Source: Gammaproteobacteria bacterium
GTDB lineage: Bacteria > Pseudomonadota > Gammaproteobacteria > JAADGQ01
Direction of reading: 5' to 3'
Assembly: GCA_021648145.1 (NCBI GenBank)
Contig: JAKITI010000021.1
Span: 1-37,960, forward strand
DNA: 37,960 nt
The notes below the pieces were generated by a model, which saw nothing but the letters and a program-made list of their open reading frames with translations, had not been told where the DNA came from and did no database searches. The position numbers were made by a program, and so were the translations under genes. The first letter of the stretch is position 1. Each line of letters opens with the position of its first letter. Positions 3,123 to 37,960 of the stretch are shown one piece after another.

Positions 3123-3132
3123 TGTTTTAAAT

Positions 3133-10982: not shown

Positions 10983-11016
10983 AAAATCGGGGTCAAAGTG
11001 AAATACAATATTCAGT

Positions 11017-11118: not shown

Positions 11119-11128
11119 AGTCTCGTTC

Positions 11129-12097: not shown

Positions 12098-12119
12098 TGT
12101 TATTCTCCAGATTTTTAGA

Positions 12120-20101: not shown

Positions 20102-21553
20102 CTACGGATTTAATGCTTTTTGTATGTTATTGGCTGTGACTCGTTGCCGTTGTCCATGAGGAGTTGAGTTGTGCCGAGTTTTCTTCTGTTCCCGTAATTC
20201 TACCATCTTTTTCACCAACTGCTCTCCTCTGGCAATGCGATCACGTATTGATACGCCGCCTCGATAATTTGCTTCCAGATGAAGGCCTGGGAGTTTTTTT
20301 AGCTGTTTTTCTATTGCGGATAATCGAGCCTGATAAGCGCCATGATAAAGCGGCAACGCTTGTTGGTGGCGGTGAACTGATACCATCTCTGGCTCACCTT
20401 GCAGGTTCAGCAGTGGTCGCAGTGCTTTTATCACTTGCTCCGTCATCTGTTGTTTTGACCATTCAAATGCTTCGGGTTGTCGTGCTCCGCCTAGATAGGT
20501 CGTGAGAAGTGCCTTGCCAACAGGAGCACGGTTGGGAAAAAGGGCGCTCATCCACAGGTTGCCATTAAAGGGAAGTCTTTCAGTTTTTGGCACCAGAAAA
20601 CCAGTGGCATCCAACGCATGGCCAATTTGTGAACGATCAAATCCCATATGGAGAACTGCCAGAGGTGCGTAATTAATTCCTTCCAGCAGCTCTGCCAGCT
20701 CGTTGTTGAGTGGTGCGACAGCGTTTGCGGCGACGGGTGCTGGGGTGCTTAGTACCACTTGCCGTGCTCGGCGCGTCTCTGTGCCCAGCGCTGTATTGGC
20801 AATGATAGACCAGCCTGATTTTCCGTTGGGTATCAGTTCCACCATTCGGTAACCTGTACGTAAATTGATTCCAGGCGTGGCGGCCAATGTCTGTACTAAT
20901 GTTTCCATACCACCGTTAAAAGAGAAAGTTTCGGTGGTGCAGGCAGTGCGGCGGCGTAGCAGTTTGTTGATGAGCACACCCGCAGTAATGCTGCCATAAC
21001 GCTGTTCCAGCCCCGTTAATCTGGGCAGGGTCGCAGCGGCGCTGGCATATTGGGCATCGGCTGCTAAAGTGCCGGCGATAAAAGGCTCCATCGCTTTTTC
21101 CAGCATCTCCAGGCCTAACCTGCGGGTGATAAATTGGCTGACGGTTTCATCTTCATGTTTGCTGGCTGGCATAAAGGGTTCTGCCAGCAGTCGTAATTTT
21201 CCTTTGAGGCTCCAGAGTGGGGAGCTGATCATGCTGCCGAGTTTCATCGGCATGGGTGTGAGCTGGCCGTTATTGAGCAGATAACGGTGTGCTTCTGATT
21301 CTGCTGAGCGATAGCTCTTCTCTTTTTCAAGATCTAATCGACGTACCAGCTCTGAGACTTCAGGTCTAAAGTTAAGCAAAAGTGATGCACTTTGCTCGGT
21401 GAGATAGCCATCTTGTCGTTCACTGCGAATCTTTCCTCCAGCACGTTCCGATGCCTCCCATACTTCAACGGACATTCCAGCTCTTACAGCCCACCAGGCT
21501 GTGGTGAGACCCGATATTCCGCCGCCAATTACAAGGAGATCAACATCATTCAT
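20102..21553 (-). CDS. hemG: FAD-dependent protoporphyrinogen oxidase (HemG/HemY type)
   Basis: A 483-residue flavoprotein with the N-terminal dinucleotide motif VIGGGISGLTTAWWAVRAG, the VEVWEASERAGGKIRSE ribose-binding segment, and the C-terminal GVSIRDRIARGE that resembles the family's FAD-binding end (usually 'GVGVPDCI'). Family members oxidise protoporphyrinogen IX or coproporphyrinogen III during haem synthesis. The gene overlaps the radical SAM gene by 4 bases. Its place among cytochrome genes suggests a dedicated tetrapyrrole step; the exact substrate could instead be another porphyrinogen or a carotenoid-like compound, since this amine-oxidase superfamily is broad. Confidence 0.85.
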   Translation of the reverse strand: MNDVDLLVIGGGISGLTTAWWAVRAGMSVEVWEASERAGGKIRSERQDGYLTEQSASLLLNFRPEVSELVRRLDLEKEKSYRSAESEAHRYLLNNGQLTPMPMKLGSMISSPLWSLKGKLRLLAEPFMPASKHEDETVSQFITRRLGLEMLEKAMEPFIAGTLAADAQYASAAATLPRLTGLEQRYGSITAGVLINKLLRRRTACTTETFSFNGGMETLVQTLAATPGINLRTGYRMVELIPNGKSGWSIIANTALGTETRRARQVVLSTPAPVAANAVAPLNNELAELLEGINYAPLAVLHMGFDRSQIGHALDATGFLVPKTERLPFNGNLWMSALFPNRAPVGKALLTTYLGGARQPEAFEWSKQQMTEQVIKALRPLLNLQGEPEMVSVHRHQQALPLYHGAYQARLSAIEKQLKKLPGLHLEANYRGGVSIRDRIARGEQLVKKMVELREQKKTRHNSTPHGQRQRVTANNIQKALNP

Positions 21554-23592
21554 TTTTTCACCTCTTGCTTCACTTTTTTGCCCGCTTTGAGTTCTGCTTT
21601 CATCTGGTCGATCAGTGATTGCCCCAATAATTCACCAGGATTTTCACGTTCTTCTACAAAATTACGGATGGTGGCAAAACGCTTGTCTGCTTCGCTATTG
21701 TTTTTCAGACGTGGAACTTTTTTACGAGCGATGGCATAAGCATCGAAGTTCAGCTCTTTTAGACCAAACCCTTTCATGCGCTTGACGGCACGCATCATGG
21801 CGCGGTTACGAAAACGAGTCAGATCGCTAGAGCTGATACAGCTTAAATCTTCACGCCTGGCGTTGAATTCAGCGGCTTTTTTGATGCCAGCACGAATGAA
21901 GTCGGGTGCTTGGCTGAGACGTTTTTGCGCTTCATCGCTCCAGGTGACTCCACCCGTAATCGGCTTTATTGCAGCTTCTACGTCCTGAAATTCTACCGTA
22001 GTGACACGCCGTTTTCTTGCGTGTTGCTCTGCCGCACCTTCCATAGCAGGTGTGACAAACAGTTGCACTTCGCGTCGTTTGTCGGCAAGAAAAGAGGCAA
22101 GGTGTTGCTCTGCATCGCTGCTCCAATCGAGTGTGCGACCCGCTTCATCTTCTGCTTCCAGCCGATTCAAAAGCTTGACGTTGACTTCAAGCCGCCCTTC
22201 AGCGCGAGCAACATCTTCGGCCACCTGCTCTACGCCTGAGCGTAAAAAAGTGGGAATATCATTCATTCGTTGTTTTGCTTCTTCAGTCCATGAAAGTGGA
22301 GCGTCGTTGCCAACCGCTTTGGATGTGCTAGGGCGTTTTGGGCCTTTGCCATTAAAACGTTGCGCTGAAAGTGTTGAAAGATGCTCGCCTGTGACTTCCG
22401 TTTCACCACGTTCTCTCACATAACTTTCGGCTCTTTTTTTGACCATTTTTCGCAAAAAACCGGGAACTCGCGTTAATCGTTGAGCCGCTTCGTCCGTCCA
22501 GGTGACATCCTCTTCTTCTTTTTCAACTAATGGCAGAATAGTGGCTCCACCTTGGGGTTGATAGCGACACCAGTTATCGCTGTCCATGATGTCACCGCCC
22601 AGTGCTAGCGGCCTGGCACGGCAGCCACCACAGAGTTTCTGATATTCACACTCACCACACTTTCCCTTGAGTTGTGGATTGCGAAGTTGCTGAAAGCCAG
22701 GGCTGTGTTGCCATGTTTCCCAAAAAGGTGTGGTGCGAATATTGGCCTCTTCATCTGGAATGTAAGGGCAGGCTGTGATGCCACCTTCAGGAGTGACACG
22801 ACAATAGTGCGTGCCCGCAGGACAACCGCCGCCTTCGTAACCTTGCGCCTTTGTCAGGAGTGATTCAGGGTCAATTTGATAGGCGATTCGTTTAAAATGG
22901 GGCGCACAGCGTGCTCGGATAATTAAGTCGCTGACTCTGTTTTGAGCTTCTACCAGTTGTTTGAGAACCTGTTCGTAGGTCTGGGCAGTAATATCTGACA
23001 TTGATTCGCCACGACCGGTGCAGATCAGGAAAAAGATATTCAGTACCTTGGCTCCAGTGCTGCGAGCGAACTGGATCATCTCTTCAATTTCGTGAGCGTT
23101 GGCTTCGGTGACGGAGAAGTGAACTTGAAAAGCGAGGTCTATTTTGCGGCAGGCATCCATTCCGGCCAGTGTTTTTTCCCATGCTCCGGGGCGGCCGCGA
23201 AATGCATCGTGCTGCTCTGGATCAAGAGAATCGACGCTGATTCCCACGCCCATCACACCTGCGGTTTGCAGCTCAAGGGCTCGTTTTTCATTCAACATCA
23301 CGCCATTGGTGCCTACAACAATAGCGAGTCCAGCGGTTGATCCGTGCTGTACGAGTTCGGTCAGATCGCGCCGCAATAATGGTTCGCCGCCGGTGAGTAC
23401 CACCATTGTTTGCTCTGAATGTGTTGCGACCTCATCCAGAAGCCCTTTGACCTCATCGGTGGTTAATTCATCCGCACTACCATGTTTGAGCGCATGCGCA
23501 TCAAGGTAACAGTGATCACAGGCGAGGTTACAACGCCGTGTTAAATTGATTGCAAGTAGAAAAAGATCATTTGTGTCGGTACTGCTCTCCAT
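21550..23592 (-). CDS. Radical SAM/SPASM protein with four C-terminal PCP_red repeats
   Basis: A 680-residue fusion. Residues 1 to about 345 are a radical SAM enzyme with the cluster motif CNLACDHCY, GGEPLLRRDL for SAM, and a SPASM-like auxiliary cluster region (GGCPAGTHYC, CPYIPDE, CGECEYQKLCGGCRARPLA). This resembles the NirJ/AhbD group that modifies haem or sirohaem side chains, though peptide-modifying relatives look similar. From Trp365 onward there are four repeats beginning W(T/S)xEA...RL..(V/I)P.F(L/I)R (Trp365, 435, 490, 551), the PCP_red domain pattern known from the C-terminus of protochlorophyllide reductase BchB/ChlB; the third is degenerate. Such a fusion suggests tetrapyrrole binding. 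It overlaps the HemG-like gene by ATGA. Confidence 0.88.
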   Translation of the reverse strand: MESSTDTNDLFLLAINLTRRCNLACDHCYLDAHALKHGSADELTTDEVKGLLDEVATHSEQTMVVLTGGEPLLRRDLTELVQHGSTAGLAIVVGTNGVMLNEKRALELQTAGVMGVGISVDSLDPEQHDAFRGRPGAWEKTLAGMDACRKIDLAFQVHFSVTEANAHEIEEMIQFARSTGAKVLNIFFLICTGRGESMSDITAQTYEQVLKQLVEAQNRVSDLIIRARCAPHFKRIAYQIDPESLLTKAQGYEGGGCPAGTHYCRVTPEGGITACPYIPDEEANIRTTPFWETWQHSPGFQQLRNPQLKGKCGECEYQKLCGGCRARPLALGGDIMDSDNWCRYQPQGGATILPLVEKEEEDVTWTDEAAQRLTRVPGFLRKMVKKRAESYVRERGETEVTGEHLSTLSAQRFNGKGPKRPSTSKAVGNDAPLSWTEEAKQRMNDIPTFLRSGVEQVAEDVARAEGRLEVNVKLLNRLEAEDEAGRTLDWSSDAEQHLASFLADKRREVQLFVTPAMEGAAEQHARKRRVTTVEFQDVEAAIKPITGGVTWSDEAQKRLSQAPDFIRAGIKKAAEFNARREDLSCISSSDLTRFRNRAMMRAVKRMKGFGLKELNFDAYAIARKKVPRLKNNSEADKRFATIRNFVEERENPGELLGQSLIDQMKAELKAGKKVKQEVKK

Positions 23593-23609: not shown

Positions 23610-25736
23610 TTATTTTTTATACATCTTTGGATCAGATTCCGAGTGGAAAATACCTTTTTCTTTCCAGTGAGCAGTGGCTTTGTCAAGAATCTCTTCCGTG
23701 ACGGTCGTTATGCCATTCTGCGCCGCACACTGCTCAGTCTCTTTGATTACCATGCCGCGTACAAAGTCAGGGATTTTTTCGATGCGCTGTGCGGCGTGTT
23801 CATCCCACTGCATTTTCATCTGTTGCTTGGCTGAGCCTGCATTCCACTCGGCATATTTTTCATCAATAAGCTGTGGGGTGATGCCATCGATTTTATGGCG
23901 GGTCGCAAATGCTTCAATTCGTTGACGTGTGAGATCACGCATAAAACCGACAGGCACTTTACTCATACGTGCTTCAGCGGCGGCGCTCCAAGTGATATTT
24001 GAAGGGGCGGTGCGGGCGCGTGCAGAGCGGTCATCAGAATCAATCGAGCCTGATTCCATTGAATTCATCGCCTTTCGAGCTTGTTTGAGCCCTTGCTCTG
24101 CGACTGTAAGTGTGATTTCGTTAATATCATTTTGCTTGGCATACTGCTCTATACGATCTTTTGATGTATTACGCATAAAGCCTTCAGGAACGCGTGCTAA
24201 TCGTGCTAAAGCGGCAGCTTGCCAAGTAATTTCTAAATTATCACTGGGTTCACTAGATAGCAGTTTGCTCATAAAGGGTTCAATATCAGCTTTTTTGACT
24301 CGGTTTCTGCCTTGTGACCGTGCCTTTTTTTCAGCTCGCATGCTGAGGTTGCCGCGCAATGCCAGTTCATCGACTGTTTTTAATAGTGCTGTGGCATCAT
24401 CGTCCCAACGCATGACTTCGTTATTGGTGGCTCGACGTTTCAAATCACCCGCATCGTGTGCACAAACGATCTCTTCCATCGCTTGCTCTGCATGATCGGG
24501 CATCAATTCGGCAGTAGCTTCTTCCACGATACGTTCGGTGATAATCGTGTGGCCTTTCTCCTGGGCATAACGCAGGATGGCCATGCGTGCCATGGGGCGC
24601 ACAAAGGAAGGAACACGCTCCATGCGACGCTCAGCTTCAATGCTCCATGATGTGGTGACTGATGCAAGACGATCCACTTCCGGCTGATGCTGACGCTGAC
24701 TGAGCAGCACGGCACATTCGGCATCATGCAGCAGGTACTCGCTGTTGCCGCCGATGTCGAGTTCAGCATCAGCATGCACGCCTGTTTTTCCTAGAATGAG
24801 CAGTGATGGTTTGACCTTTTTCAGGTACTTCATGATGACATCGTGCGGTTTGCCATCAAGCAATACAGTTTCAATCTTCATGTCGTGATCAGCGGCGATT
24901 GATTCAGCGACTTTGAGATGACCTTGGTAAATCTTTGCGAGGCCGGAATCAATGATATCTTCGTGCAGTTTTTCTTGCTCCTTGAACTTGAATACTTTAC
25001 CCGCCTCTTCAGATAGCACACCAGCGATTCGATTGAATGCAACGTAGTGATAGTAAGGGTCAAAAGCAGCGACGACTTTGACTTCAACATTCCATTGCCG
25101 TGCCAGCGACAGGGCAGTAAGCAGGCCGCCATAACTGCGTGACGATCCATCGACTCCTACAACGATAGGGCCTTTGTTGATGGATTGCTCTGGGTCTTTG
25201 ATAATAAGGGTGTCAATATCTGAGCGACGCGCAACTCTTTGACAAACAGTTCCGAGGCGGTTGCCATGAACCGCCCCAAGACCCGCTCCTCCCATAACAA
25301 GCAATTCGTAACTACTCTTTTTGTTATTACATTCACGCACCAGTTCGCGGTAGTTTTTGCCTTCTAAAGGGCGGCGTTTGAATTCGATATTTGCATCTGC
25401 ACAATCACGTTCTACCTGATCAAGGTAGGAGTCGGTAATGATGGATAGGCCGCGTGTGATGAGGTCGTCATGCACATCGCGTTGCCGTTCCAGTTCGTCT
25501 TCCATGCGAAATTCTTCTGGCAGGCCACCTTCCATCTGCTTGAAGCGAATGTCGTGAAGTTTGGCGGCATAAACGTGAGTGGCGGTGATTTTACTGTTAA
25601 AGAAACTCGCCAGTTCGAGTGCTTCCTGACGGGCTTTATTGCTATGGTCGGATGAATCTACGGCCACTAAAATGGAGTTATAGCCTGGTAGTGGGGCAGT
25701 CTCTTCCTGCTTTGTTTCTAACGCATGAGCTGTCAT
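23610..25736 (-). CDS. Tandem universal stress protein with five PCP_red repeats
   Basis: A 708-residue protein. Two UspA-type domains come first: NSILVAVDSSDHSNKARQEA (near 20) and GPIVVGVDGSSRSYGGLLTA (near 190). The first ends in LLVMGGAGLGAVHGNRLG, a Usp ATP-binding-like GxGx(9)G region; the second has LLILGKTGVHADAELDIGGNSE. From about residue 365 five PCP_red-like repeats follow (WSIEAERRMERVPSFVRPM; WDDDATALLKTV, divergent; WQAAALARLARVP; WSAAAEARMSKVP; WDEHAAQRIEKIPDFVRGM). The gene lies 17 bases upstream of the radical SAM gene with related repeats. Together they suggest a shared tetrapyrrole- or partner-binding scaffold. The function of Usp-PCP_red fusions is not known to me. Confidence 0.88.
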   Translation of the reverse strand: MTAHALETKQEETAPLPGYNSILVAVDSSDHSNKARQEALELASFFNSKITATHVYAAKLHDIRFKQMEGGLPEEFRMEDELERQRDVHDDLITRGLSIITDSYLDQVERDCADANIEFKRRPLEGKNYRELVRECNNKKSSYELLVMGGAGLGAVHGNRLGTVCQRVARRSDIDTLIIKDPEQSINKGPIVVGVDGSSRSYGGLLTALSLARQWNVEVKVVAAFDPYYHYVAFNRIAGVLSEEAGKVFKFKEQEKLHEDIIDSGLAKIYQGHLKVAESIAADHDMKIETVLLDGKPHDVIMKYLKKVKPSLLILGKTGVHADAELDIGGNSEYLLHDAECAVLLSQRQHQPEVDRLASVTTSWSIEAERRMERVPSFVRPMARMAILRYAQEKGHTIITERIVEEATAELMPDHAEQAMEEIVCAHDAGDLKRRATNNEVMRWDDDATALLKTVDELALRGNLSMRAEKKARSQGRNRVKKADIEPFMSKLLSSEPSDNLEITWQAAALARLARVPEGFMRNTSKDRIEQYAKQNDINEITLTVAEQGLKQARKAMNSMESGSIDSDDRSARARTAPSNITWSAAAEARMSKVPVGFMRDLTRQRIEAFATRHKIDGITPQLIDEKYAEWNAGSAKQQMKMQWDEHAAQRIEKIPDFVRGMVIKETEQCAAQNGITTVTEEILDKATAHWKEKGIFHSESDPKMYKK

Positions 25737-25869: not shown

Positions 25870-25992
25870 TTAATGCATCAACCAATTCACCACAATGACT
25901 GCAACCACAATCATGTTGATGCTGAAACCAACCATTGCAATATAGTCAAAAGCGGTGAAACGGTAGCGAAAATCCTCTGGAGAGCGATTCAT
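25870..25992 (-). CDS. 40-residue single-span membrane peptide
   Basis: A short gene coding for a charged N-terminus (MNRSPEDFRYRFTAFDY) and one hydrophobic helix (VGFSINMIVVAVIVVNW). The ATG overlaps the stop of the upstream gene by one base (TAATG), which strongly supports translation by coupling. It resembles small helper subunits of membrane oxidase complexes such as CydX or CcoQ in size and form only; no homology is claimed. It is followed by the inverted-repeat mini-element. Confidence 0.65.
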   Translation of the reverse strand: MNRSPEDFRYRFTAFDYIAMVGFSINMIVVAVIVVNWLMH

Positions 25993-26729
25993 TATTTGCC
26001 TTTATATGCAAAATCAACGCTCTCTTTACCACCGGCACTGATCTCAACTTTTCCTTTCTTTTCACCCAGTGTGCCGTGCCATGCCCGAATCTTATATTTT
26101 CCCGCTGGAATGTTATCAATGGTGTAGCTGCCATCGGGCTTGACGACTGCGTAATAGGGGTTTTTGGCGACAAAGGTAAAACCATGCATGAAGTCATGAG
26201 CATCACACTCTAATTTCATTGAAGTGCCACGTTTCAGTTTTATTGTTTTGTCCAAGGTTTTCAGGTCTGAAGGCTGGCTGATGTTAAAGACTGTTTTTCT
26301 TACTTTGCCAATCAGCTCGTAGGTGTGAATGTTGTGCAGTACTGGGTCAGAGTTATTTATGGTCAGTTTGTCACCATTTTTCATGACACCCAGAAAAGGG
26401 CTGAACTCACATTTTTTTTGATTAAGCACTGGATTTTCAAGTTCAGCTTTGAACGCTTTACCTTCCTTGACTTTGGCTAGGTAGACAACGGTGTCATTGA
26501 GCGCACCGTTGTTAACTTTTACAAAGTCGATCAGCCGTTCGCCTGTTCCGCAAGTATCGCTATCTTTGGCTATGGGGTAACTATTGGCGACGGGATCTTT
26601 GCCACTAAAAGAGACTTTACCACTGACGCTGCCGCCATTAGCCACATCAACAACTTTATAAGCTGCATGTGCACTTAATGGTAAGGCTGCCGCAGTGATG
26701 AGTGAAAGTGCTATGACTGATTTTTTCAT
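25992..26729 (-). CDS. Periplasmic cupredoxin/carboxypeptidase-regulatory-like protein
   Basis: A 245-residue exported protein from ATG 26729. The ATG at 26738 is adjacent to the AGAGGA site and too close. The signal peptide is SVIALSLITAAALPLSAHAA. The first part has GGSVSGKVSFSGKD and cysteines at CGTG and KKCEF. The middle has a plastocyanin-like region (NGDKLTINNSDPVLHNIHTY, then MKLECDAHDFMHGF) with His, Cys, His and Met in positions that could bind copper or haem. The end has a CPR/transthyretin-like fold (VVKPDGSYTIDNIPAGKYKIRAWHG). Such proteins accompany methylamine-dehydrogenase-like and cytochrome clusters. I infer a periplasmic electron carrier or complex subunit. Confidence 0.8.
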   Translation of the reverse strand: MKKSVIALSLITAAALPLSAHAAYKVVDVANGGSVSGKVSFSGKDPVANSYPIAKDSDTCGTGERLIDFVKVNNGALNDTVVYLAKVKEGKAFKAELENPVLNQKKCEFSPFLGVMKNGDKLTINNSDPVLHNIHTYELIGKVRKTVFNISQPSDLKTLDKTIKLKRGTSMKLECDAHDFMHGFTFVAKNPYYAVVKPDGSYTIDNIPAGKYKIRAWHGTLGEKKGKVEISAGGKESVDFAYKGK

Positions 26730-26767
26730 TTTTATCATTCCTCTTATTAATTTTGAATCAATATTTT

Positions 26768-29113
26768 TCAGGCTGCTGGTTTTAAGACTCCTTCCAGCAT
26801 CTCGATGGTGAAACGGCGTTCAAGGCTGTTTTTTGATTCATTGAGCTGCTTTAAAAGCCTGGCTTCTGCCAACTCTGAATCAAGTCGTCGCAAGGCGCTT
26901 CCCATACCCTCCGCATCGCCTCCTGTGCTGGTAAGACCCACCTGAATAATGCGCTCTACCACATTTTGGCGATATTGGTGGTCACCAATATTCTGCCCTA
27001 GACCAGCAACTGCCTGAGCCGCATTGCGACGAACGATGGGGTGCTCGTCATCCAGTCTTTCAAGCAGTGCTTCAACGACTGTTTCGTAATTGATGTGATC
27101 AACGGGTGAGGTTTGTTCGCGCATTGGGATTTTATTGGCTTGCAGCAGCTGAACCAGTGAATCAATGATTTGAGAGCGCAGCATGGGCGCTTCATCGTTC
27201 AGCTTTTCAAGCAAAGAAGGGGTCGCATTTTGGTTGGCCATGATACCCAGTGCTTTGGCACTGACGATCTGTAGCGGGGGTTCACCAAAATAGAGGCGGT
27301 GTGTGATCGGCCCCATAGCATTTGCTAGGCCTGCGGTCTCAGGTGCTGTCATGGCAATGCGGGTAAGAGAGTCGATGGCATCAATCTGTACATCAGTGGA
27401 TTCATTTTGCAGCGCATCCAGCAGAGCGTAGACCACTTCGGGTCGGGCGCATTCGCCAAGAATACGCGCACTGAGTGAGCGTACGTCTGTTTTGATATCC
27501 AGTATTTTTGGTTTGCAAAGTGTCTTGAATTTTTCACGATCACTCTCTACCAGGTGCAAATATTCGTCGAGTCTTGATGCATCTTCAACATCGGGCAGTG
27601 ATTCAGGGGTGGGTAGATCGCCTGTGTCTGCACGGCTGGTTTTCTGTTGAATGGCTGCTTCCTCGCCCTCCATGATAATGGCATCCAGAGTGGAGGTAAT
27701 GATGGGAGTCTCTTCTGCTTTTTCTTCTTCGACTAACTCTTCAATGATACCTTGTGGCTCTTCGTCTGAAATTTCTTCGCTCTCTATTTTTTCGTCGTCA
27801 CCGAGTTTAATCTCTCCTCGAAGTGCAGCGATCACAATGGCAAGAGAGGCTGGTATCTGCTCTGATATACTGGAGGCATTACGAGCCAGCTCCATTAAAG
27901 CACTCAAGGCTGAAAGACGAACGACTTGATCGCTGTCAGCCAGTGATTTTGTCAGGTTTGCGAGTACCAGAGCGCTTTCTTCATTACGTTTTCCCAGAGC
28001 GAGCGCTGCTTCCCGGCGCACCATAGGCTCTTGATGATGATCCATCAGTACCACCACAAGCGCTTGTTCTGTTTTAGGGTCTTTCAAGTTTCCGGCCAGC
28101 TTGCATGCTGCCGAGGCAACTTCGATGTGAGGCTCTACGACTCTTTTCAGGAGGATCTCTTGCAGAGTTTTGCTATTCAGATCGCTGATCGGCAGTAGAT
28201 CAGAAGCGACTCCCAGTGCTGTTGCGCGTACTAATGGATCGTTATCATTGATCAGCTCCAGCAAAGTATCTGGTTCTATGGCTGATTTGCTAGAGATGTC
28301 ATGATCACTGCCTAATCGGGACATGGCCATCATTACCGACTGACGTACACTATTGGATGAGTCTTTCAGCATCAGCAAGAGCGCTGCCACAGGGGCTCCA
28401 CTCTTGTGCTGTGCCAATGCTTCGACAGCACTGCTACGTACTGAGTCATCAGAATCTTTCAGTGCTTCTAATAGAGCGGTTGAGCTTTCTGGTGATGTGG
28501 AACTCGCAAGTGCTTTTACAGCACGGCGGCGCTGACGTGGTTTACCGCTTATCAATTGATCAATCACGGCTGTTTCACCTGCGCCACCGATAGTGATAAG
28601 CGCAGTGAACAGTTCATCTTCAATATCCTGGCTAATTTCATCTTCATCTTTAAGGAGTGTCACCAGCGTAGGAACAGCTTCGGCAATTTTCATTTTCCCC
28701 AGCGCTTTCACCGCTTCGCGTTGCATATCCCACCAGCAATCCCAATCACCTTCATCATCCCATTCGAGGTTTTCAGGTTTTGCCAGAGCTATCTCTATCA
28801 GGTGGGGCGCAACTTCGGTATTGCCGATGCTGCCCAGAGCCGTGACCACTGCGGTTTTGACATCACCATCGGGATCGTTAGTCAGGGAGTCGATGAGTGG
28901 TTCAATGGCGCTGGAATCAGCCAGTTGTCCGAGTGCGTTGATGGCATCTAGGCAGACATCAATATCTTCATCGCGCAGCCTTTCAACCAGATCAGAGACA
29001 ACGGATGAATTCCCCAGTATCCCCAGCGTGCGGCACGAACAACAGCGATCCAGTTCATCTCCGGTATTTAAAAGGTTGCGTATGGCGGTCACTGTTTTTG
29101 AACTGCTTGTCAT
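26768..29113 (-). CDS. HEAT-repeat protein, first gene of the minus-strand operon
   Basis: A 781-residue protein with many HEAT/PBS-lyase-type repeats, each about 31-33 residues (for example VVSDLVERLRDEDIDVCLDAINALGQL, SSNSVRQSVMMAMSRLG, EPMVRREAALALGKR). Repeats fill residues about 1-430 and 520-740. They are separated by an acidic linker (EKIESEEISDEEPQG and following) predicted to be disordered. There is no signal peptide, so it is probably cytoplasmic. It starts with a CCSC motif near residue 23. HEAT proteins are scaffolds, and relatives act in phycobilin lyases, so a role in cofactor attachment or complex assembly is possible. Its sigma-54 promoter is at 29161-29175. Confidence 0.9.
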   Translation of the reverse strand: MTSSSKTVTAIRNLLNTGDELDRCCSCRTLGILGNSSVVSDLVERLRDEDIDVCLDAINALGQLADSSAIEPLIDSLTNDPDGDVKTAVVTALGSIGNTEVAPHLIEIALAKPENLEWDDEGDWDCWWDMQREAVKALGKMKIAEAVPTLVTLLKDEDEISQDIEDELFTALITIGGAGETAVIDQLISGKPRQRRRAVKALASSTSPESSTALLEALKDSDDSVRSSAVEALAQHKSGAPVAALLLMLKDSSNSVRQSVMMAMSRLGSDHDISSKSAIEPDTLLELINDNDPLVRATALGVASDLLPISDLNSKTLQEILLKRVVEPHIEVASAACKLAGNLKDPKTEQALVVVLMDHHQEPMVRREAALALGKRNEESALVLANLTKSLADSDQVVRLSALSALMELARNASSISEQIPASLAIVIAALRGEIKLGDDEKIESEEISDEEPQGIIEELVEEEKAEETPIITSTLDAIIMEGEEAAIQQKTSRADTGDLPTPESLPDVEDASRLDEYLHLVESDREKFKTLCKPKILDIKTDVRSLSARILGECARPEVVYALLDALQNESTDVQIDAIDSLTRIAMTAPETAGLANAMGPITHRLYFGEPPLQIVSAKALGIMANQNATPSLLEKLNDEAPMLRSQIIDSLVQLLQANKIPMREQTSPVDHINYETVVEALLERLDDEHPIVRRNAAQAVAGLGQNIGDHQYRQNVVERIIQVGLTSTGGDAEGMGSALRRLDSELAEARLLKQLNESKNSLERRFTIEMLEGVLKPAA

Positions 29114-29620: not shown

Positions 29621-29779
29621 TTGAGTAAGGTCGATGATAAAAGTGCCGAGCAAGCCAGTGGTGATACCGGTTACCGCACGACATGGGGGACAAAACTGTT
29701 TTGGGGTGTGTTGATCGGATTGCTGGTTTTTTTCTGGTGGTTGTTGATCTACTCCCATGGAATCGAAGTGAGTCACTAA
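29621..29779 (+). CDS. 52-residue single-span membrane protein, first gene of cytochrome operon
   Basis: A short gene starting with TTG at 29621 after a strong GGGAGGGG site. The protein has a polar N-terminal third (SKVDDKSAEQASGDTGYRTT), then a Trp-rich membrane helix (LFWGVLIGLLVFFWWLLIY) and the tail SHGIEVSH with two histidines. It precedes another tiny gene and the CydA-like gene, so it is likely an accessory subunit of that complex. The family is not recognised. Confidence 0.7.
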   Translation: MSKVDDKSAEQASGDTGYRTTWGTKLFWGVLIGLLVFFWWLLIYSHGIEVSH

Positions 29780-29808
29780 TAAATGTATAAGAATCTAGAG
29801 GTCAGTTA

Positions 29809-29940
29809 ATGGATATCAAACAAGTAAAAGTCTGGGTGGGTGCGTTCCTTGTGGTGTTGCTTTTTTTCTACGGGCTCGATCATTTTGTGATGAGTATTCA
29901 GGGTCTGCCTCTGAACCTTGATATGACCCCTGCACAATAA
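29809..29940 (+). CDS. 43-residue single-span membrane protein
   Basis: ATG 29809 follows an AGAGGTCAG site. The protein is one membrane helix (VWVGAFLVVLLFFYGLDHFV) with the tail SIQGLPLNLDMTPAQ. It ends 20 bases before the CydA-like start. Size and position suggest a small subunit of the membrane cytochrome; no homologue is recognised by eye. Confidence 0.7.
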   Translation: MDIKQVKVWVGAFLVVLLFFYGLDHFVMSIQGLPLNLDMTPAQ

Positions 29941-29960
29941 AATAGGCCTTGGAGTATTTT

Positions 29961-31820
29961 ATGAAAAGAGGACTGTTCAGACCGGCTATCGTAGCCCCTT
30001 TTCTCCTGCTACTGATGGCGGCACTGACGCTCGGTGCGTTTAGTGGTGTGGATGGTGGTCATAGTGTAATCAGTGATTTGCATGTAGCTGAGGCAACAGA
30101 GAGCGGTATCGCTGAAACCGAACTTAAAGCCGCACCTAAACTGGGGGCTGGAGATTATCCAGATATCGGTGCCAGTAGTCGCTCCATCGTTTGGGTATTG
30201 GCTCAAATGCATCTCTATTTTGGGGCATTGGTGCTGTCGGTACCGCTATTTGTTCTTGTGATTGAGTTGATGGGCGTGAAAACCGGCGATGCTCGTTATG
30301 ATGACATGGCGCACGAGTTCATGAAAATCTGCATCACGGCCTACTCGATTACGGCACTTTTTGGCGGGTCACTGTCACTGGCGCTGTTTCTGCTCTATCC
30401 CGACTTTATGGCCTACATGATGAGGGTGTTCGGGGCGCAGATGATGGTCTATGCCATACTTTTTTTCATGGAAAGTGCGGTGCTTTACATCTATTACTAC
30501 GGCTGGAATGCACTCCGCTACGGCAATGCTAAATGGGTTCACCTTTCGCTCGGATTACTGCTCAATGGTGTCGGTTTGACGCTGATGGTGGTCGCCAATT
30601 CATGGGCGACATTTATGATGGCACCTTCAGGAGTGAATGAAGTGGGTGCGGTGATCGGCAATATCTGGGAAGTCATGAAAGGACCGCTGTGGAATCCGAT
30701 TAACTTACACCGATTTATTGCCAATATTGCTTTTGGTGGCGCAGTGGTGGGGGCTTATGCGGCTTATAAATGTCTGGCTGCTCGCACGGCAGAGGAGAAA
30801 GCGCATTATGACTGGATGGGCTACACCTCTAATTTTATTGCGGTACTGGCATTTCTGCCCTTGCCGTTCGCGGGCTACTGGTTGATGGCTGAAATATATG
30901 CCTATTCTCAGCAGATGGGAATTACTGCGATGGGCGGTATTCTCGCTTGGTTGTTTATTGTGCAGGCGGTGTTGATCGGTACGATTTTACTGGCGGCAAA
31001 CTATTATCTTTGGTCGGGCATGTCGCGCAACGCGGGGGCTGATCGCTACAAAGGTGCGATTAAATATATTGCTATTGTTATCACCGCCTGTTTTCTTATC
31101 TGGGTAACTCCCCATACACTGATTTTGACTTCAGCAGAGTCGGCGGCACTGGGTGGCAGTCACCACGGTATCTTGGGGCCGCTGGGTATTATGCCAGCGA
31201 AGAATGTGGCGGTGAATTTGATGTTGATTTTCACCTTTCTCTCTTTTCAGCTCTATAACCGCTCGAATAAAGAGTTCACCGTTCCATGGGTGAACACGGG
31301 TAATGCCATTATGGTCGCCATCTACGTTGTGGCTGTGGTGAATATCATTTTTGTCGGTGTCTATTACGGTTACTTTTCTAATACCGTTTATAAAGTGGGT
31401 TCCAGTGTGATTCAGGTTGCTTCGACGCTGGTGGTGATTATCGCCGGTGTGGTGATTGATGCCATGATGTCGAAGGGCGCGAAGAAAACACCATCGCGTT
31501 GGGGGCAGGTGAGTGATCGCTCACAATATGCACTCTTTGCGTTGCCTATTGCCTTTACTTGGCTGATGGCATTGATGGGTTATGTGCGCTCTTCAGTACG
31601 CACCCATTGGCACGTTTACACCGTGATGAAAGATGGTTCGCCAGATAATTACATTCCTACTATTGGCTATGCAGGCAATATGATTACGATTACCACAGTG
31701 CTCTTTGTATTGCTGGTGCTCTTTGTTTTCTGGATTGCATCGCTCAGTGGGCAGCGCCAGATACCGCCGATTCAGCTGTCACCCACAACAAAGACCGTGC
31801 GTGAAGGGGGTGGAGTGTGA
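29961..31820 (+). CDS. CydA-like cytochrome bd-family membrane subunit (divergent, no CydB)
   Basis: A 619-residue protein with about 13-14 membrane helices, starting at ATG 29961 behind a GGAG site. The N-terminal half follows CydA: His84 (AQMHLYFGALVLSVPLFVLVIE) matches the haem ligand His19 of E. coli CydA, and FFMES with Glu171 matches FFLES. After NP, the equivalent of His186 (FVHTV) is replaced (HRFIANIAF), with His250 three residues earlier. The quinol-loop signature GWxxxExGRQPW is not seen; the comparable place reads GYWLMAEIYAYSQQMG. No CydB is encoded, while cytochromes c follow. These traits recall the non-quinol branches of the bd superfamily, so electrons may come from cytochrome c. 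Oxygen reduction is not proven; NO or another oxidant is possible. Confidence 0.85.
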   Translation: MKRGLFRPAIVAPFLLLLMAALTLGAFSGVDGGHSVISDLHVAEATESGIAETELKAAPKLGAGDYPDIGASSRSIVWVLAQMHLYFGALVLSVPLFVLVIELMGVKTGDARYDDMAHEFMKICITAYSITALFGGSLSLALFLLYPDFMAYMMRVFGAQMMVYAILFFMESAVLYIYYYGWNALRYGNAKWVHLSLGLLLNGVGLTLMVVANSWATFMMAPSGVNEVGAVIGNIWEVMKGPLWNPINLHRFIANIAFGGAVVGAYAAYKCLAARTAEEKAHYDWMGYTSNFIAVLAFLPLPFAGYWLMAEIYAYSQQMGITAMGGILAWLFIVQAVLIGTILLAANYYLWSGMSRNAGADRYKGAIKYIAIVITACFLIWVTPHTLILTSAESAALGGSHHGILGPLGIMPAKNVAVNLMLIFTFLSFQLYNRSNKEFTVPWVNTGNAIMVAIYVVAVVNIIFVGVYYGYFSNTVYKVGSSVIQVASTLVVIIAGVVIDAMMSKGAKKTPSRWGQVSDRSQYALFALPIAFTWLMALMGYVRSSVRTHWHVYTVMKDGSPDNYIPTIGYAGNMITITTVLFVLLVLFVFWIASLSGQRQIPPIQLSPTTKTVREGGGV

Positions 31821-32659
31821 GTGATCCTACGGAGCATAAAACTGCGAGTTCAGGTTCGGTCTTGGTAAAAACGATGGGCTTTAGCCTGTTTCTGATTATA
31901 GTCTTCACTCTGTTTACTAATCTGTTGCCACAGGTTGAAGGGGAAGCGCCGGTCGATAAAGAGGTGGATATCGGGGCTTTGACGATGGAGTCATTTGTCG
32001 AGCTGGGAGAAGAGCTGTTCCACGGCAAGGGAACATGTTCGCTTTGTCATAACGACCTGGGGCGTGCGCCCGATATTCTGGTGCTTGATATGACGGCAAC
32101 GTCCAAAAAGCATTTAGCCGATGAGCGTTATGAGGGAACGGCGACCGATGATGGCTCTTATCTTCTCGAATCATTGGTGAACCCTGGCATCTATGTCGTG
32201 GCTGGTTTTGGTAAAAAAGGCAGCAACGATACGGAATCCCAAATGCCTGCGGTAGATAAAGCGCCCATTGAACTTACAGCACTTGAAATGGATGCCGTGA
32301 TCGCTTTTATGCAGGCGAAGGATGGCAATGATGTGACGGTATCACTGCCGAGTGAAGCGCCCGCAGCTTCCACGACCGCTGAGGCATCACCCAAAGCCGC
32401 GCAGTCGGCGGAAGAGGTTATTGCCAAACTGGGTTGCGCGGCATGTCATTCGTTAGAAGGTTCTGATGTATTGTTGGGTCCTTCACTACAGGGCATAGGC
32501 AGTCGCTTGAGTGTTGAAGAGATCAGGCAAAGCATTATTGACCCTGAAGCCGTCATACCCGATGGGTTTGAAGGCGGCATGATGCCCGCCACTTTTGCTG
32601 AGCAGGTGACGGCTAAAGAGATGGAAATGATGGTTCAATTTTTAGCGAAGCAGAAATGA
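31817..32659 (+). CDS. Membrane-anchored dihaem cytochrome c
   Basis: A 280-residue protein starting with GTG 31817, overlapping the CydA-like stop by 4 bases. One N-terminal membrane helix (MGFSLFLIIVFTLFTNLLP) anchors it. Two class I cytochrome c domains follow: CSLCH at residues 74-78 and CAACH at 207-211, joined by an Ala/Ser/Pro-rich linker (about 180-200). Candidate Met ligands lie in SQMPAVD after the first and GGMMPATF after the second. It should face the periplasm and pass electrons between the triheme subunit and the membrane cytochrome. The direction is not determined by sequence. Confidence 0.93.
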   Translation: MSDPTEHKTASSGSVLVKTMGFSLFLIIVFTLFTNLLPQVEGEAPVDKEVDIGALTMESFVELGEELFHGKGTCSLCHNDLGRAPDILVLDMTATSKKHLADERYEGTATDDGSYLLESLVNPGIYVVAGFGKKGSNDTESQMPAVDKAPIELTALEMDAVIAFMQAKDGNDVTVSLPSEAPAASTTAEASPKAAQSAEEVIAKLGCAACHSLEGSDVLLGPSLQGIGSRLSVEEIRQSIIDPEAVIPDGFEGGMMPATFAEQVTAKEMEMMVQFLAKQK

Positions 32660-32681
32660 AGTATTTAATGGGGGTCATTTA

Positions 32682-35096
32682 ATGAAAGGTTTTAAGATTC
32701 CGGCATTTTGGCAAGCGGTACTGTTTACTATATTCGCTTATTTGGTATTCGATAACGCTTTTCCACCGCTGTTGCCCCAGACGCTGATGATTCAATACAT
32801 GATCATCACCATCGTCGGCGTGTTGCTCTATTTTTCGTATGACGAAGAGCGCTGGAGTGAGTTTAAGTCACCGATTCTGAATGTGCTCAGAAAGCCGGAG
32901 TTGTCTGTTGTGCGCTGGGCGTATCTGATTTTTATCCCTCTATTGGTGGGTTACGTGACCTACGGCATGGTCAAACCCTCCATTGATGCGCCAGTGGAGC
33001 TGCGTCAAGTTCACCCGGCTCCGCCTGCATTTGTGAAGGTTTATGGCAATAAATATGATCTGGCCACACTGGAAAATCCGTTGCGCACTGAAATTCTGGA
33101 GCAGATGGAGTCTGAGCCAGAAGCCGCCTGGGAACGTTACGATGAAGTGATTGCCGCAGGTTCTGAAATCTATTATCAGAACTGTTTTTATTGTCATGGT
33201 GATCTGCTGGATGGTAAGGGGCACTATGCCAGTGGCTTTAATCCAAAACCGGCTAATTTCCAGGATGTGGGCACGATTGCCCAGTTGCAAGAGTCATATC
33301 TTTTCTGGCGTATCACGACCGGTGGCCCCGGGCTGCCTAAAGAGGGAACGCCGTGGAACTCTGCGATGCCGGTCTGGCATGAGATGCTTGATGAAGAGCA
33401 GGTATGGCAAGTGGTCACCTTTCTTTTTGACTACGTTGAGCAAGTTCCTAGGATTTGGGATCAGGATATTTCCAGAGCAGTGACTGGAATGAAAGGCAAG
33501 GTATCAAAAGAGCGTAAAGGGCAGATGGGAATGGCGCTTTATAAACAGCGTTGTCTGGTGTGTCATGGCGAGCAGGGAATGGGCGATGGCGCCGCGACGG
33601 ACTATCTTTATCCCAAACCGCGTGACTTTTCATTGGGGCTTTTTAAATACAAAACGACGCCAGGTACAACGTTGCCAAAAGATAGCGATCTCTTCGACAT
33701 CATTAAATTTGGGCTTTTCCCGAGTACCGGTATGCCGGGCTGGGATACATTGATGAGTGATGAGCAGATTCGCAGCCTGATTCCAATCATCAAAGGTTTC
33801 GATATGACCGCAGCATGGGCACCGGAAGATGCCGATGATGAAGCGTTCGATGACGATGGCTATTACCTTAAAGATGATTATGTGCAGATCACTGCAAATG
33901 AACCACTGGATGGGCAGGTTGCTTTCAGTGATGAGTCGGTGGCGCAAGGTGAAACAGTTTTTAAAGAGATTTGTGGTAAGTGTCATGGTCTGGAAGGACG
34001 CGGTAACATTACATCGGGCAAGAAACTGGAAGATGATTGGGGCAACCGCCTCTGGCCTCGTGATTTGACAAAGCCGTGGACATGGCGCATCAGCAATGTG
34101 GCAGGAGGGGATGACAAGTCGCGCAGTGAGACAATCCAGAGAATTTATAGCCGTCTTTCTATCGGCATACCCGGCACACCGATGCCTGCTCATCGAGCCA
34201 CAGAAGAGGGCAATCAAGATTCCGTTTCAATTGATGATCGCTGGCATATCGCCAATTTCGTTTACAGTTTGAGAGAAACCACGGTGCAGCCTAACGACGA
34301 GCCAGTGGTGCGAGGGCAGAAAGTAGAAGGTGCGCTGCCTGATGATCCAGCAGCCGAAGCCTGGGTTAATGCGCCCGCAGTCACGCTGGCTCTTGTGCCG
34401 AATATGATTAAGGAAGAGCGTCTTTTTACACCGCTGAGTGATGCCGTCACCGTACGGGTACTCTATAACGATGATGAAATTGCTTTTCTGATGGATCTGA
34501 ATGATCGCACTGATAGCCGCCCAGGTGAACCCGTGGCGACACAGATTCATGATGACTCTCTGGATATGCACTCTGATGCATTGGCGATTCAGTTTCCCAA
34601 AGCAGAGTCGTTTGAAACTTCACCCGTCGTGATTAAACCGCTCTACCGACATGGTGACAGCGCTCGCCCCACCACAATGTGGTATTGGAATGCGGGCAGC
34701 GTCGAGCCTGTAATGACTGAGCGGGTCGCTCTGCTTGATGCCAGTGGCCCTGATCAGAAGCTTGAGATGCGAAAAGGCGATGATAGTTTAACTGCCACAG
34801 GGCAATGGCAGGATGGTCGTTGGCAAGTGATGATGAAGCGGCCACGTCAAGGAAATGAAGAGTCGGGTGATGTCAGTTTCAATGAAGGTGATTTCATCCC
34901 CATCTCTTTTGCCAACTGGGATGGAAATAATGGCGAGATTGGAGCGCGTCATACGTTAACGACCTGGTATTGGCTGGTGTTGCCTGAGAGCCCTGACTTG
35001 ATGAAGGTTTATGGAATTCCTGCTGGAGTTGCAATCCTGATGTTATTGACTGGGTTGTTGCTGGTGCGCAGTCAGGGGCGAAAAAAGGAGGTGTAA
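32682..35096 (+). CDS. Multi-domain triheme cytochrome c with ethylbenzene-dehydrogenase-like haem domain
   Basis: An 804-residue membrane protein. Three N-terminal membrane helices (within residues about 8-105) are followed by three cytochrome c domains: CFYCH at 168, CLVCH at 291 and CGKCH at 431. Each has downstream Met candidates, such as GTPWNSAMPVWHE, STGMPGWD and IGIPGTPMPAH. Residues about 548-770 resemble the EB_dh domain, the haem-b-binding gamma subunit of ethylbenzene dehydrogenase/DMSO-type enzymes (AWVNAPAVTLALVP, VRVLYNDDEIAFLMDLNDRTDS, ALAIQFP, MWYWNAGSVEP, W-rich end). A C-terminal helix (GIPAGVAILMLLTGLLLV) re-enters the membrane. No molybdoenzyme partner is present here, which is unusual for an EB_dh domain. 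It is the last gene of the operon. Confidence 0.9.
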   Translation: MKGFKIPAFWQAVLFTIFAYLVFDNAFPPLLPQTLMIQYMIITIVGVLLYFSYDEERWSEFKSPILNVLRKPELSVVRWAYLIFIPLLVGYVTYGMVKPSIDAPVELRQVHPAPPAFVKVYGNKYDLATLENPLRTEILEQMESEPEAAWERYDEVIAAGSEIYYQNCFYCHGDLLDGKGHYASGFNPKPANFQDVGTIAQLQESYLFWRITTGGPGLPKEGTPWNSAMPVWHEMLDEEQVWQVVTFLFDYVEQVPRIWDQDISRAVTGMKGKVSKERKGQMGMALYKQRCLVCHGEQGMGDGAATDYLYPKPRDFSLGLFKYKTTPGTTLPKDSDLFDIIKFGLFPSTGMPGWDTLMSDEQIRSLIPIIKGFDMTAAWAPEDADDEAFDDDGYYLKDDYVQITANEPLDGQVAFSDESVAQGETVFKEICGKCHGLEGRGNITSGKKLEDDWGNRLWPRDLTKPWTWRISNVAGGDDKSRSETIQRIYSRLSIGIPGTPMPAHRATEEGNQDSVSIDDRWHIANFVYSLRETTVQPNDEPVVRGQKVEGALPDDPAAEAWVNAPAVTLALVPNMIKEERLFTPLSDAVTVRVLYNDDEIAFLMDLNDRTDSRPGEPVATQIHDDSLDMHSDALAIQFPKAESFETSPVVIKPLYRHGDSARPTTMWYWNAGSVEPVMTERVALLDASGPDQKLEMRKGDDSLTATGQWQDGRWQVMMKRPRQGNEESGDVSFNEGDFIPISFANWDGNNGEIGARHTLTTWYWLVLPESPDLMKVYGIPAGVAILMLLTGLLLVRSQGRKKEV

Positions 35097-35313: not shown

Positions 35314-35691
35314 TCAGGGATTGAACTTATTAATTTCAATTTCTTTAACAATTCTATAGTGTTTATTATTGCCAGTGAGCAAAGGAATGCCATGAGATAC
35401 CGCCGTTGCTCCAATTAAAGCATCTGCGAGTTGCATTGAATGGCTCAAATAATGTTGTTCAACATAAAACATGGCTTTGCTGGAAATTTCTTCGGTAATG
35501 TAGATGATTTTTGTATTCCATGCCTTTAAGGATTTTCGCAACAAGATTAATTCATGCTTGCTTCTCATGCCTTGAACAAGCTCCATGTATGTGACTACCG
35601 AGATTTTGAAACGATTACTTTTATTGAGCGCTTCATAAGCTTTTTGGTTTCCACGCATATACCAAATAATAATATCGGTATCAATTAGCAT
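35314..35691 (-). CDS. vapC: VapC-type PIN-domain toxin
   Basis: A 125-residue PIN protein with MLIDTDIIIWYMRGNQKAYE (first Asp pair), SVVTYMELVQGMRSK (conserved Glu), SMQLADALIGATAVSHGIPLLTGNNKHY (later acidic residues). All expected catalytic positions are present. The 5' end overlaps the Phd-type antitoxin gene by 11 bases. Confidence 0.92.
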   Translation of the reverse strand: MLIDTDIIIWYMRGNQKAYEALNKSNRFKISVVTYMELVQGMRSKHELILLRKSLKAWNTKIIYITEEISSKAMFYVEQHYLSHSMQLADALIGATAVSHGIPLLTGNNKHYRIVKEIEINKFNP

Positions 35692-35923
35692 TGAATCTGC
35701 CCTTTCTTATATCTCTTACATAATGATCTACATCTTCTGTTTGTTCATTATCTTTCCATACTCCAAATAGCTCATCTGTATTTGTTAATTCGTTATCATC
35801 CTCAATGGGCACTAACTTGGCACAAGGCTTGCCACGATATGTAATAACGACCTCTTCACCCCTTTTTACTGTGTTAAGTAACTCAGCGGAGTGGAATCTT
35901 AAATCTTTTGCAGTTGCTTCCAT
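35681..35923 (-). CDS. vapB: Phd/YefM-type antitoxin
   Basis: An 80-residue antitoxin with a typical Phd fold: MEATAKDLRFHSAELLNTVK followed by RGEEVVITYRGKPCAKLVPIE, then a toxin-binding acidic tail (DELFGVWKDNEQTEDVDHYV). It starts about 27 bases after a predicted transcription start with an overlapping palindromic operator, consistent with self-repression. Confidence 0.92.
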   Translation of the reverse strand: MEATAKDLRFHSAELLNTVKRGEEVVITYRGKPCAKLVPIEDDNELTNTDELFGVWKDNEQTEDVDHYVRDIRKGRFNAN

Positions 35924-35985: not shown

Positions 35986-36151
35986 GTAAGATTGGTACTT
36001 TAATAATTGCCGAGTCCCTTGCATATTGTTCCCACTTCAATGCCGCCAGTGGGTACTCAAGTACTGCGTGAGTTTTCTATCAAAAGCAACAGAAAAAAAT
36101 TAGAGCATATATTGTGCTATGATGAATGCATGTGAACGCAGGAGAATCACA

Positions 36152-36418
36152 ATGACTACAACTATGACGCTTCGTCTTGATGATGAAACCAATGATCGTC
36201 TTTCAAATTTAGCGGGAGCGACTGATCGCTCTAAGGCATATCTGGCTACGCAAGCACTCAAATTATTTTTAGCTAATAATGAATGGCAAGTCCAGGAAAT
36301 TAAAGAGGCCGTAGCTGAAGCTGATATTGCTGCCCCAGATCAGTTTGTTGATAATGATACGGTTATGGCCTGGATGGAAACCTGGGGAACTGACCACGAG
36401 AGCCAACCGCCATTGTGA
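36152..36418 (+). CDS. CopG/RHH-type antitoxin of a ParDE-like module
   Basis: An 88-residue protein from ATG 36152, with AGGAG 7-8 bases upstream; the frame opens earlier at 36119. The first 50 residues (MTLRLDDETNDRLSNLAGAT, RSKAYLATQALKLFLAN) are a ribbon-helix-helix. The tail QEIKEAVAEADIAAPDQFV followed by MAWMETWG is typical of antitoxins paired with RelE/ParE toxins. Its stop overlaps the toxin start by one base (TGATG). A small AGCA-N7-TGCT repeat upstream may be the operator. Confidence 0.9.
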   Translation: MTTTMTLRLDDETNDRLSNLAGATDRSKAYLATQALKLFLANNEWQVQEIKEAVAEADIAAPDQFVDNDTVMAWMETWGTDHESQPPL

Positions 36419-36702
36419 TGAAGGTTGTCTGGTTTAAAAGAGCTATTTGGGATTTGAAATCGGCAAAAGACTATATAATCCAGGACAACCCTCAAGCGGC
36501 TCAAAACATAGTGCAGAGGATCAAAGACAAGGTTGCTTTACTAAGTGAGCAGCCAGGTATTGGAAGACTGGGGCGAGTATCAAACACAAAAGAGCTGGTT
36601 GTGGATAAAACCTCATTTATTTTACCGTATCGGGTGCGTGATAATAAAATTGAAATCTTGCGAGTGTTTCACACTTCAAGACGTTGGCCAAAGAAAATTT
36701 AG
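36418..36702 (+). CDS. parE: ParE/RelE-superfamily toxin
   Basis: A 94-residue toxin: VVWFKRAIWDLKSAKDYIIQ, NPQAAQNIVQRIKDKVALLSEQPGIGRLGRV, then the C-terminal sheet TKELVVDKTSFILPYRV and IEILRVFHTSRRWP, with the HxxRxWP end that marks this ParE subgroup. It is complete and coupled to its antitoxin. Confidence 0.93.
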   Translation: MKVVWFKRAIWDLKSAKDYIIQDNPQAAQNIVQRIKDKVALLSEQPGIGRLGRVSNTKELVVDKTSFILPYRVRDNKIEILRVFHTSRRWPKKI

Positions 36703-36944: not shown

Positions 36945-37832
36945 ATGGGAAAAATTGCCGCTCAGTTTATTGCTCATAGACGAAAAAATGGGGAAGAGCA
37001 GTTGCTTGTTAAGCATCTTGCTGAGGTTGGTGAGATTGCCGCTCAACTAGCATCAAAGATCGGTGTGTCTGATGTGGGGACATTAGTTGGATTGCTCCAT
37101 GATATGGGCAAATTTAGTGCGGACTTTCAATCATACATAGGCTCAGCCACTGGGAAAATCAAGTTTGGCGAAGAAAATTACGTTGATTTTGATGGCCTAA
37201 AGGGCAAGATTGATCACTCAAGTGCCGGAGCACAGTGGGCATGGAAAGCGTGCCAAAAATGGGGGCCACAGGGGCAGCTGATTGGTCAGATATTGGCGTT
37301 GTGTATTGCATCTCACCACAGTGGTTTGATCGATTGTTTGAAGCCAGAGGGTGAGAACAGTTTTTCGGTCAGAATGGGTAAGCCGGATGACAAAACCCAT
37401 AAAAATGAATCGCTGAACAGTGCGCCGGAAGAGTATGTTAAAAAACTGGAAGCACTGCTTAACAAGGAGTTAATCCAAAACGTATTCGGGCGACTAAAAA
37501 CAGTTTCTCAGGCACCTAATAAATCCATCCGGTCATTCAATATTGGTTTTTTCACTCGACTGTTATTTAGCTGCCTGATCGATGCAGATCGTATGAACAG
37601 CGCAGATTTTGAATGCCCTGAAAACAAACAACATAGAAGCAATCAGTCCGTTGAGTGGGCGATAGCGATCAAACGGCTTGAGCACGCAATCAGTGAGCTG
37701 GACGGCGACAAGCCCATTGATGAGTTGCGGCGACAGATTTCCAATACCTGCCGGGATCGGGCACAGGATGCACAAGGAATCTATACGCTTACAGTACCTA
37801 CTGGTGGCGGAAAAACCTATGCCAGCTTGCGT
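36945..37832 (+). pseudogene. cas3: cas3 (HD nuclease-helicase), interrupted by an insertion sequence
   Basis: The gene starts a type I CRISPR-Cas locus. Residues 1 to about 240 are the Cas3 HD nuclease: FIAHRRKNGEEQLLVKHLAEV with the first His, LLHDMGKFSADFQ with His52-Asp53, KIDHSSAGA, and ASHHSGL with two His. The helicase begins at IYTLTVPTGGGKTYASLR with Walker A at 287-291. At about 37832 homology ends and the frame runs through 28 foreign codons to a stop at 37916. The helicase is thus cut within a few residues of Walker A. An HD-only fragment might still be made, but interference by this copy should be lost unless the rest is expressed. Confidence 0.88.
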
Positions 37833-37960
37833 TCCCCCTGTGTCAGGCTAGTTGTCGCCTCTAATTTTCATATAGAGGTAGAGAGAAATGAGAAGAAACT
37901 TCACAAAATCATTTAAAATTCAGGCCGTAGAAAAAGCACTGGGTCGAAGTGAAGAAACAA
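37832..37960 (+). mobile_element. Left end of an insertion sequence within cas3
   Basis: After the Cas3 segment KTYASLR the sequence changes to CCCCCTGTGTCAGGC and then a promoter-like leader and a transposase start. The boundary at 37832 is placed to within about 3 bases. The right end and the target duplication lie beyond the window. Confidence 0.75.
37888..37960 (+). CDS. Transposase start (IS3-like OrfA, partial)
   Basis: ATG 37888 follows AGAGGTAGAGAG. The visible 24 codons read MRRNFTKSFKIQAVEKALGR and SEET, the beginning of a helix-turn-helix Tnp_1-type OrfA as in IS3-family elements. The gene runs out of the window, so the family is a provisional call. Confidence 0.7.
   Translation, partial: MRRNFTKSFKIQAVEKALGRSEET

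Follow-up and report, generated by a model that had tools for sequence, protein, structure and literature searches.

The 37,960-nucleotide stretch of DNA analysed here (the window) is contig 21 (JAKITI010000021.1) of a gammaproteobacterial genome (GCA_021648145.1; 2.66 Mb, 97.9% complete), and between positions 29621 and 35096 its forward strand carries an operon for a CydA-like membrane protein and two multihaem c-type cytochromes. The operon begins with two small genes, each encoding a one-helix membrane peptide: peptide 1 (29621..29779, 52 amino acids, TTG start) and peptide 2 (29809..29940, 43 amino acids). The CydA-like (bd-like) subunit follows, with 14 hydrophobic helices by our count and identified by Pfam (PF01654), Foldseek, ligand comparison and a tree; its open reading frame as called spans 29949-31820 from a TTG, and the likelier start is the ATG at 29961, which has a GGAG 6 bases upstream and gives a protein of 619 amino acids (29961..31820). 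Overlapping this gene by 4 bases is that of a membrane-anchored dihaem cytochrome c (31817..32659) with CXXCH motifs at residues 74 and 207 and one N-terminal helix. The last gene (32682..35096) encodes an 804-amino-acid fusion of a trihaem cytochrome c with an ethylbenzene dehydrogenase-like (EB_dh) domain (PF13442, PF00034 and PF09459; EB_dh E 6e-17), with CXXCH motifs at 168, 291 and 431 and four predicted helices centred at 22, 43, 83 and 785; three helices and a monohaem c part come first, and then a dihaem c part, the EB_dh domain and the C-terminal helix. A preliminary description of the locus had already recognised the CydA-like, dihaem c and trihaem c/EB_dh proteins, the four helices and the total of five haem-c sites, all of which open reading frame, Pfam and motif analysis bore out; the six-protein complex that it envisaged becomes one of five, because it is two small one-helix genes that begin the operon.

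The same description could not match the combination to any described system, but it corresponds to clusters in Kuenenia (kustd1709-1712), Nitrospira and Nitrospina. Given its gene order, its domains and the match of its dihaem subunit to the solved Kustd1711 (PDB 7zs0, E 4.9e-16), the operon is, as judged from sequence comparison, very probably the membrane module of nxr clusters (kustd1712-1709 type). The Kuenenia nxr cluster encodes a CydA-like protein (kustd1712), a dihaem (1711), a monohaem (1710) and a second dihaem protein (1709), with uspA as kustd1706 (PMC6423088, PMC11791136), and the haems of Kustd1711 have been measured near +350 mV. In the Nitrospina and Nitrospira clusters a bd-like oxidase is accompanied by c-type cytochromes and by an alternative NxrC that has one helix and two haem c (PMC6606698, PMC3578206, PMC8026999); the Nitrospira members are bd-like_3, alt_NxrC_2 and two cytochromes c, and the Nitrospina bd-like oxidases have 14 helices, keep the N-terminal haem b ligands and carry helices in place of the Q-loop, without the quinol residues. 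The role of the cluster is given in those papers as enigmatic or undetermined, the suggestions being an anchor for nitrite oxidoreductase (NXR) or reverse electron transport.

The window shares with Kuenenia the order CydA-like, dihaem c, monohaem c, dihaem c, a uspA gene in the cluster and the Kustd1711 homologue. It differs in that a single gene combines the equivalents of kustd1710 and kustd1709, the front part of the 804-amino-acid protein being kustd1710-like and the rear part kustd1709/alternative-NxrC-like, and in that the source genome is without NXR; a further possible difference is the company of haem-synthesis-type genes and the two small peptides. The CydA-like gene is likened to kustd1712 and bd-like_3 by position, family and published description, and it is again by description that the window and the Nitrospira and Nitrospina clusters have in common a 14-helix bd-like protein without a Q-loop, c-type cytochromes and the alternative NxrC; Nitrospira and Nitrospina oxidise nitrite, whereas most gammaproteobacterial carriers have no NXR. 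What has been described before is the gene combination as an uncharacterised cluster in these three genera; what is new is the wide occurrence of the module among gammaproteobacteria, mostly without NXR and with the kustd1710 and kustd1709 equivalents joined in one protein.

Among ~85,000 species genomes scanned, the fused protein occurs at 28 loci (29 with one weak Terriglobia match), which sit in gammaproteobacterial assemblies including Sedimenticola, Thiolapillus, Chromatiales and vent metagenomes, as well as in symbionts of Escarpia, Lamellibrachia and Riftia (Endoriftia); most of the carriers are Dsr-type sulfur oxidisers or tubeworm symbionts. The same block order is kept in ~27 other named assemblies, so the operon is not a chance arrangement, and identity to the window across relatives is 70-78% for the CydA-like protein and 59-71% for the fusion. 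On contigs that are long enough the layout is near-invariant: genes for radical SAM, universal stress, cupredoxin-like and HEAT-repeat proteins share a strand, and the five-gene operon runs divergently from this group. By tblastn, peptide 1 is found ahead of the CydA-like gene at almost every locus (41-61% identity), and peptide 2 keeps its position (55-73%). In other Pseudomonadota (L084, L085, L086, L092 and L093) two genes take the place of the fusion, one for a three-helix monohaem protein and one for a dihaem/EB_dh protein; peptide 1 is still recognisable in L084, L085 and L092, and peptide 2 is found in L085 (E 8e-5), while L084 and L092 encode a peptide at the corresponding place. Upstream of their CydA-like gene, L085 and L092 also carry a third conserved one-helix peptide (DGVIF.GMLVN.IF.VLILY) that we did not see in the operon of the window. 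The L084 cluster (genome G613) contains two different CydA-like genes (2893-5067 and 10842-12695), separated by additional c-type cytochrome genes and one for SCO1/SenC. The module is patchy, since it was not found in a genome of the same genus (G001) or in a member of the family (G002). A DsrA search of carriers gave scores above cut-off for 22 of them but not for the source genome, and we set aside as too narrow the idea that the module is a part of sulfur oxidation. When we searched the literature for the module in symbionts that oxidise sulfur, we found papers on nitrite oxidisers only.

Association with NXR is the exception among these carriers. In one of them, G016, a Tat-signal molybdoenzyme with an iron-sulfur subunit, a chaperone and an NxrC-like protein adjoins the module operon, and the alpha subunit of this enzyme gives a full-length match to Kuenenia NxrA (1527 bits). 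When this subunit was used as query against 31 carrier genomes, full-length NXR was found in three, namely G016 itself, G670 (87% identity) and G076 (39% identity to G016), and was absent from the other 28, including the source genome; three more gave short NarG-like matches. The module is therefore not simply an NXR anchor, and NXR is context rather than part of it. The complete periplasmic NXR operon of G016 (L022, 3531-11978) encodes NxrA, NxrB-like, chaperone, dihaem NxrC-like and cupredoxin-like proteins; the NXR alpha subunits of G670 and G076 are at L096 and L097. G016, a gammaproteobacterium, also has DsrA and is possibly a nitrite-oxidising sulfur bacterium.

No CydB was found in the source genome, as the preliminary description had supposed, by a search whose control was positive in 10 of 14 genomes, and the CydA-like gene is its only CydA-family match. 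A genome search found no molybdoenzyme of the NXR/NarG type, and the idea of a partner NXR-type molybdoenzyme elsewhere in the genome was rejected. Four other molybdopterin oxidoreductases are present; the models that the molybdoenzymes resemble most are those of formate dehydrogenase/assimilatory nitrate reductase and of arsenite oxidase, with the fragments scanned staying below the curated cut-off. The genome also encodes a cbb3 oxidase, a second haem-copper-oxidase-family protein, a bc1-type cytochrome b and NuoG.

The relationship of the CydA-like subunit to canonical CydA is confined to part of the protein. Pfam Cyt_bd_oxida_I covers only residues 77-331 (~255 residues, E 2e-22), and the AlphaFold model is poor (pLDDT 55, 23 close sequences), so that the Foldseek result obtained with it, bd oxidase CydA chains as best matches, can be used just for naming bd oxidases as the nearest folds. 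We aligned 33 module CydA-like proteins with four canonical CydA, that of E. coli among them; the roles of the E. coli residues are those established from the bd structures. The equivalents of His19 and His186, haem ligands of E. coli CydA, are invariant in all 33 (His88 and His254 in the window), as is that of Glu107 (Glu175); further histidines at 198, 406 and 555 are also invariant in the family. In contrast, Glu99 and Glu445, residues of the high-spin haems, are replaced in 33/33 by Tyr (Tyr168 in the window) and Leu, respectively, and also lost in every member are Met393, like Glu445 a haem ligand, and Lys252 and Glu257, the quinol residues of the Q-loop, a loop that in its canonical form is absent. 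E. coli CydA and the window protein thus share the N-terminal fold and the three conserved equivalents, and differ in that the latter has no CydB, none of the Q-loop residues, three altered high-spin-haem or ligand positions, five attached c haems and a separate place in the tree. The preliminary description would have been overturned by a phylogeny that nested the subunit in a known quinol oxidase family whose expected partner was elsewhere in the genome; instead, the module proteins form one clade on a very long branch, split 100/100 from the four canonical CydA. The lack of a quinol site would suit either the OR-C or the OR-N family of the cytochrome bd superfamily. A CydA search of a plasmid collection returned weak relatives only. 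With the quinol loop, Glu99, Glu445 and Met393 lost throughout, these alignments argue against ordinary bd-type O2 chemistry and the usual pair of high-spin haems.

The EB_dh domain, a homologue of the type II DMSO reductase gamma subunits (NXR-C, EbdC), also speaks against a need for NXR. The haem b of NXR-C is ligated by Met155 and Lys305, both of which the true NxrC of G016 retains. In 22 of 23 fused proteins the Met position is His (His657 in the window), and the Lys position, occupied by Arg756 in the window and by either Lys or Arg in relatives, is followed by a nearly invariant His (His757); the sole exception, L043, has lost both His residues. The Met/Lys ligation of NxrC and EbdC was accordingly not found in the EB_dh domain of the window, whose genome also offers no alpha/beta partner, and in the fused proteins the domain possibly holds a bis-His haem, or no haem.

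Our preferred reading, held with middling confidence, is that the operon encodes a cytochrome-c-linked membrane redox module that exchanges electrons with quinone, the gammaproteobacterial form of the nxr-cluster module. Cytochrome-c-coupled membrane electron transfer is in itself likely; quinone as the membrane partner is a tentative assignment. Electrons would pass between periplasmic cytochromes or cupredoxins and the five c haems, and from the latter to b-type haems of the CydA-like subunit, the best guess for the net reaction being electron exchange between cytochrome c and quinone. In lithotrophs this would run mostly uphill, with proton-motive force spent to reduce quinone for CO2 fixation, and would not reduce O2. 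A periplasmic NXR, where present, could feed the module but is not required. Several points weigh against this reading: no quinone-binding site was identified in the module, from which the canonical Q-loop is missing; the bc1-type cytochrome b of the source genome could itself exchange electrons between cytochrome c and quinone; and the residue comparison in the C-terminal half of the CydA-like protein depends on a remote alignment and the structure model is poor, so that other residues might stand in for the lost ligands.

The module might instead be a terminal oxidase that oxidises cytochrome c, its CydA-like subunit reducing O2 with electrons from the c haems, as proposed for OR-N-type enzymes. 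The homology to bd oxidases, the invariant His88, His254 and Glu175 and the literature view that OR-N enzymes take cytochrome c rather than quinol would all fit such an enzyme; with Glu99, Glu445 and Met393 lost in all members, a cbb3 oxidase already in the genome and the module present in anammox bacteria, which to our knowledge do not respire O2, we regard it as rather unlikely. It is because of the ligand losses and the anammox bacteria that cytochrome c/quinone exchange would be preferred over O2 reduction. The preliminary description, which saw a cytochrome-c-linked bd-related redox complex, holds broadly, and its idea of a reductase for O2, NO or chlorine oxides is weakened by the loss of Glu99 and Glu445 in 33/33 and, again, by the anammox carriers. 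A reductase for NO or another small oxidant, serving detoxification rather than energy conservation, could be reconciled with the altered axial residue Tyr168, and canonical bd oxidases do bind NO; we consider it very improbable, as high-potential haems and a linkage to lithotrophs fit respiration better and no association with nitrosative-stress genes was seen, albeit with no dedicated test made. We give still less credence to a dedicated membrane anchor and electron acceptor for NXR, with the EB_dh part docking like NxrC. This has been proposed for Nitrospira and Nitrospina, and in G016 the two do adjoin, but the search that left 28 of 31 carriers without NXR was sensitive enough to catch the 39% relative in G076, and the Met that helps to ligate haem b in NxrC is nearly always His in the fused proteins; an anchor role is thus disfavoured for the gammaproteobacterial lineage.

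The role of the module has been open since the first anammox and Nitrospira genomes, where it was read as a part of nitrite oxidation. The dozens of gammaproteobacterial carriers without NXR separate the two, so that the module must do more than serve nitrite oxidation. They narrow the possible functions to something that sulfur oxidisers have in common with anammox bacteria and nitrite oxidisers, and offer non-nitrifying hosts in which the module can be studied.

Upstream of the operon and on the reverse strand lie genes conserved with it. Nearest is the divergent HEAT-repeat protein (26768..29113), followed by an exported protein (25992..26738) with, by inspection, a cupredoxin-like His, Cys-x-x-His-x-x-Met pattern, in which Pfam finds only a C-terminal carboxypeptidase-regulatory-like domain. 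Beyond these are a universal stress protein (USP) with four PCP_red domains (23610..25736), a radical SAM protein of the haem d1/haem b synthase type with three PCP_red domains (21550..23592; best scores to the NirJ2 and AhbD models, both below cut-off) and a HemY-type protoporphyrinogen oxidase (20102..21553; TIGR00562, 240 bits, above cut-off), a gene also found beside the module in L084, L086, L089, L091, L092 and L093. PCP_red is a domain of protochlorophyllide reductase subunits; a literature search on it gave nothing useful. The USP/PCP_red protein is present in 9 of 274 genomes of the class, and the module occurs in 9/9 of these against 2/265 without a USP match (Fisher p 3e-15, which is indicative only, because related genomes are not independent). 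It is plausible from their domains that the HemY, radical-SAM/PCP_red and USP/PCP_red genes perform a dedicated tetrapyrrole step. As a set they accompany the module almost without exception, which suggests that they probably serve it by making or inserting a tetrapyrrole. That the module is an NXR-independent lithotroph cytochrome c:quinone oxidoreductase whose CydA-like core contains a modified tetrapyrrole from this adjacent set is a doubtful extension. The constancy of these companions provides a testable handle on the cofactor.

Further upstream, at 15699-19752, a sensor kinase and a sigma-54-type response regulator likely regulate the module; related pairs stand beside it in L086 and L093. 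Downstream of the operon are two toxin-antitoxin-like pairs (35314-35923 and 36119-36702, PIN/Phd and ParE/RelE type by appearance), and a Cas3 HD-type protein (36945-37916) extends into the contig end, so that a CRISPR locus probably lies just beyond it.

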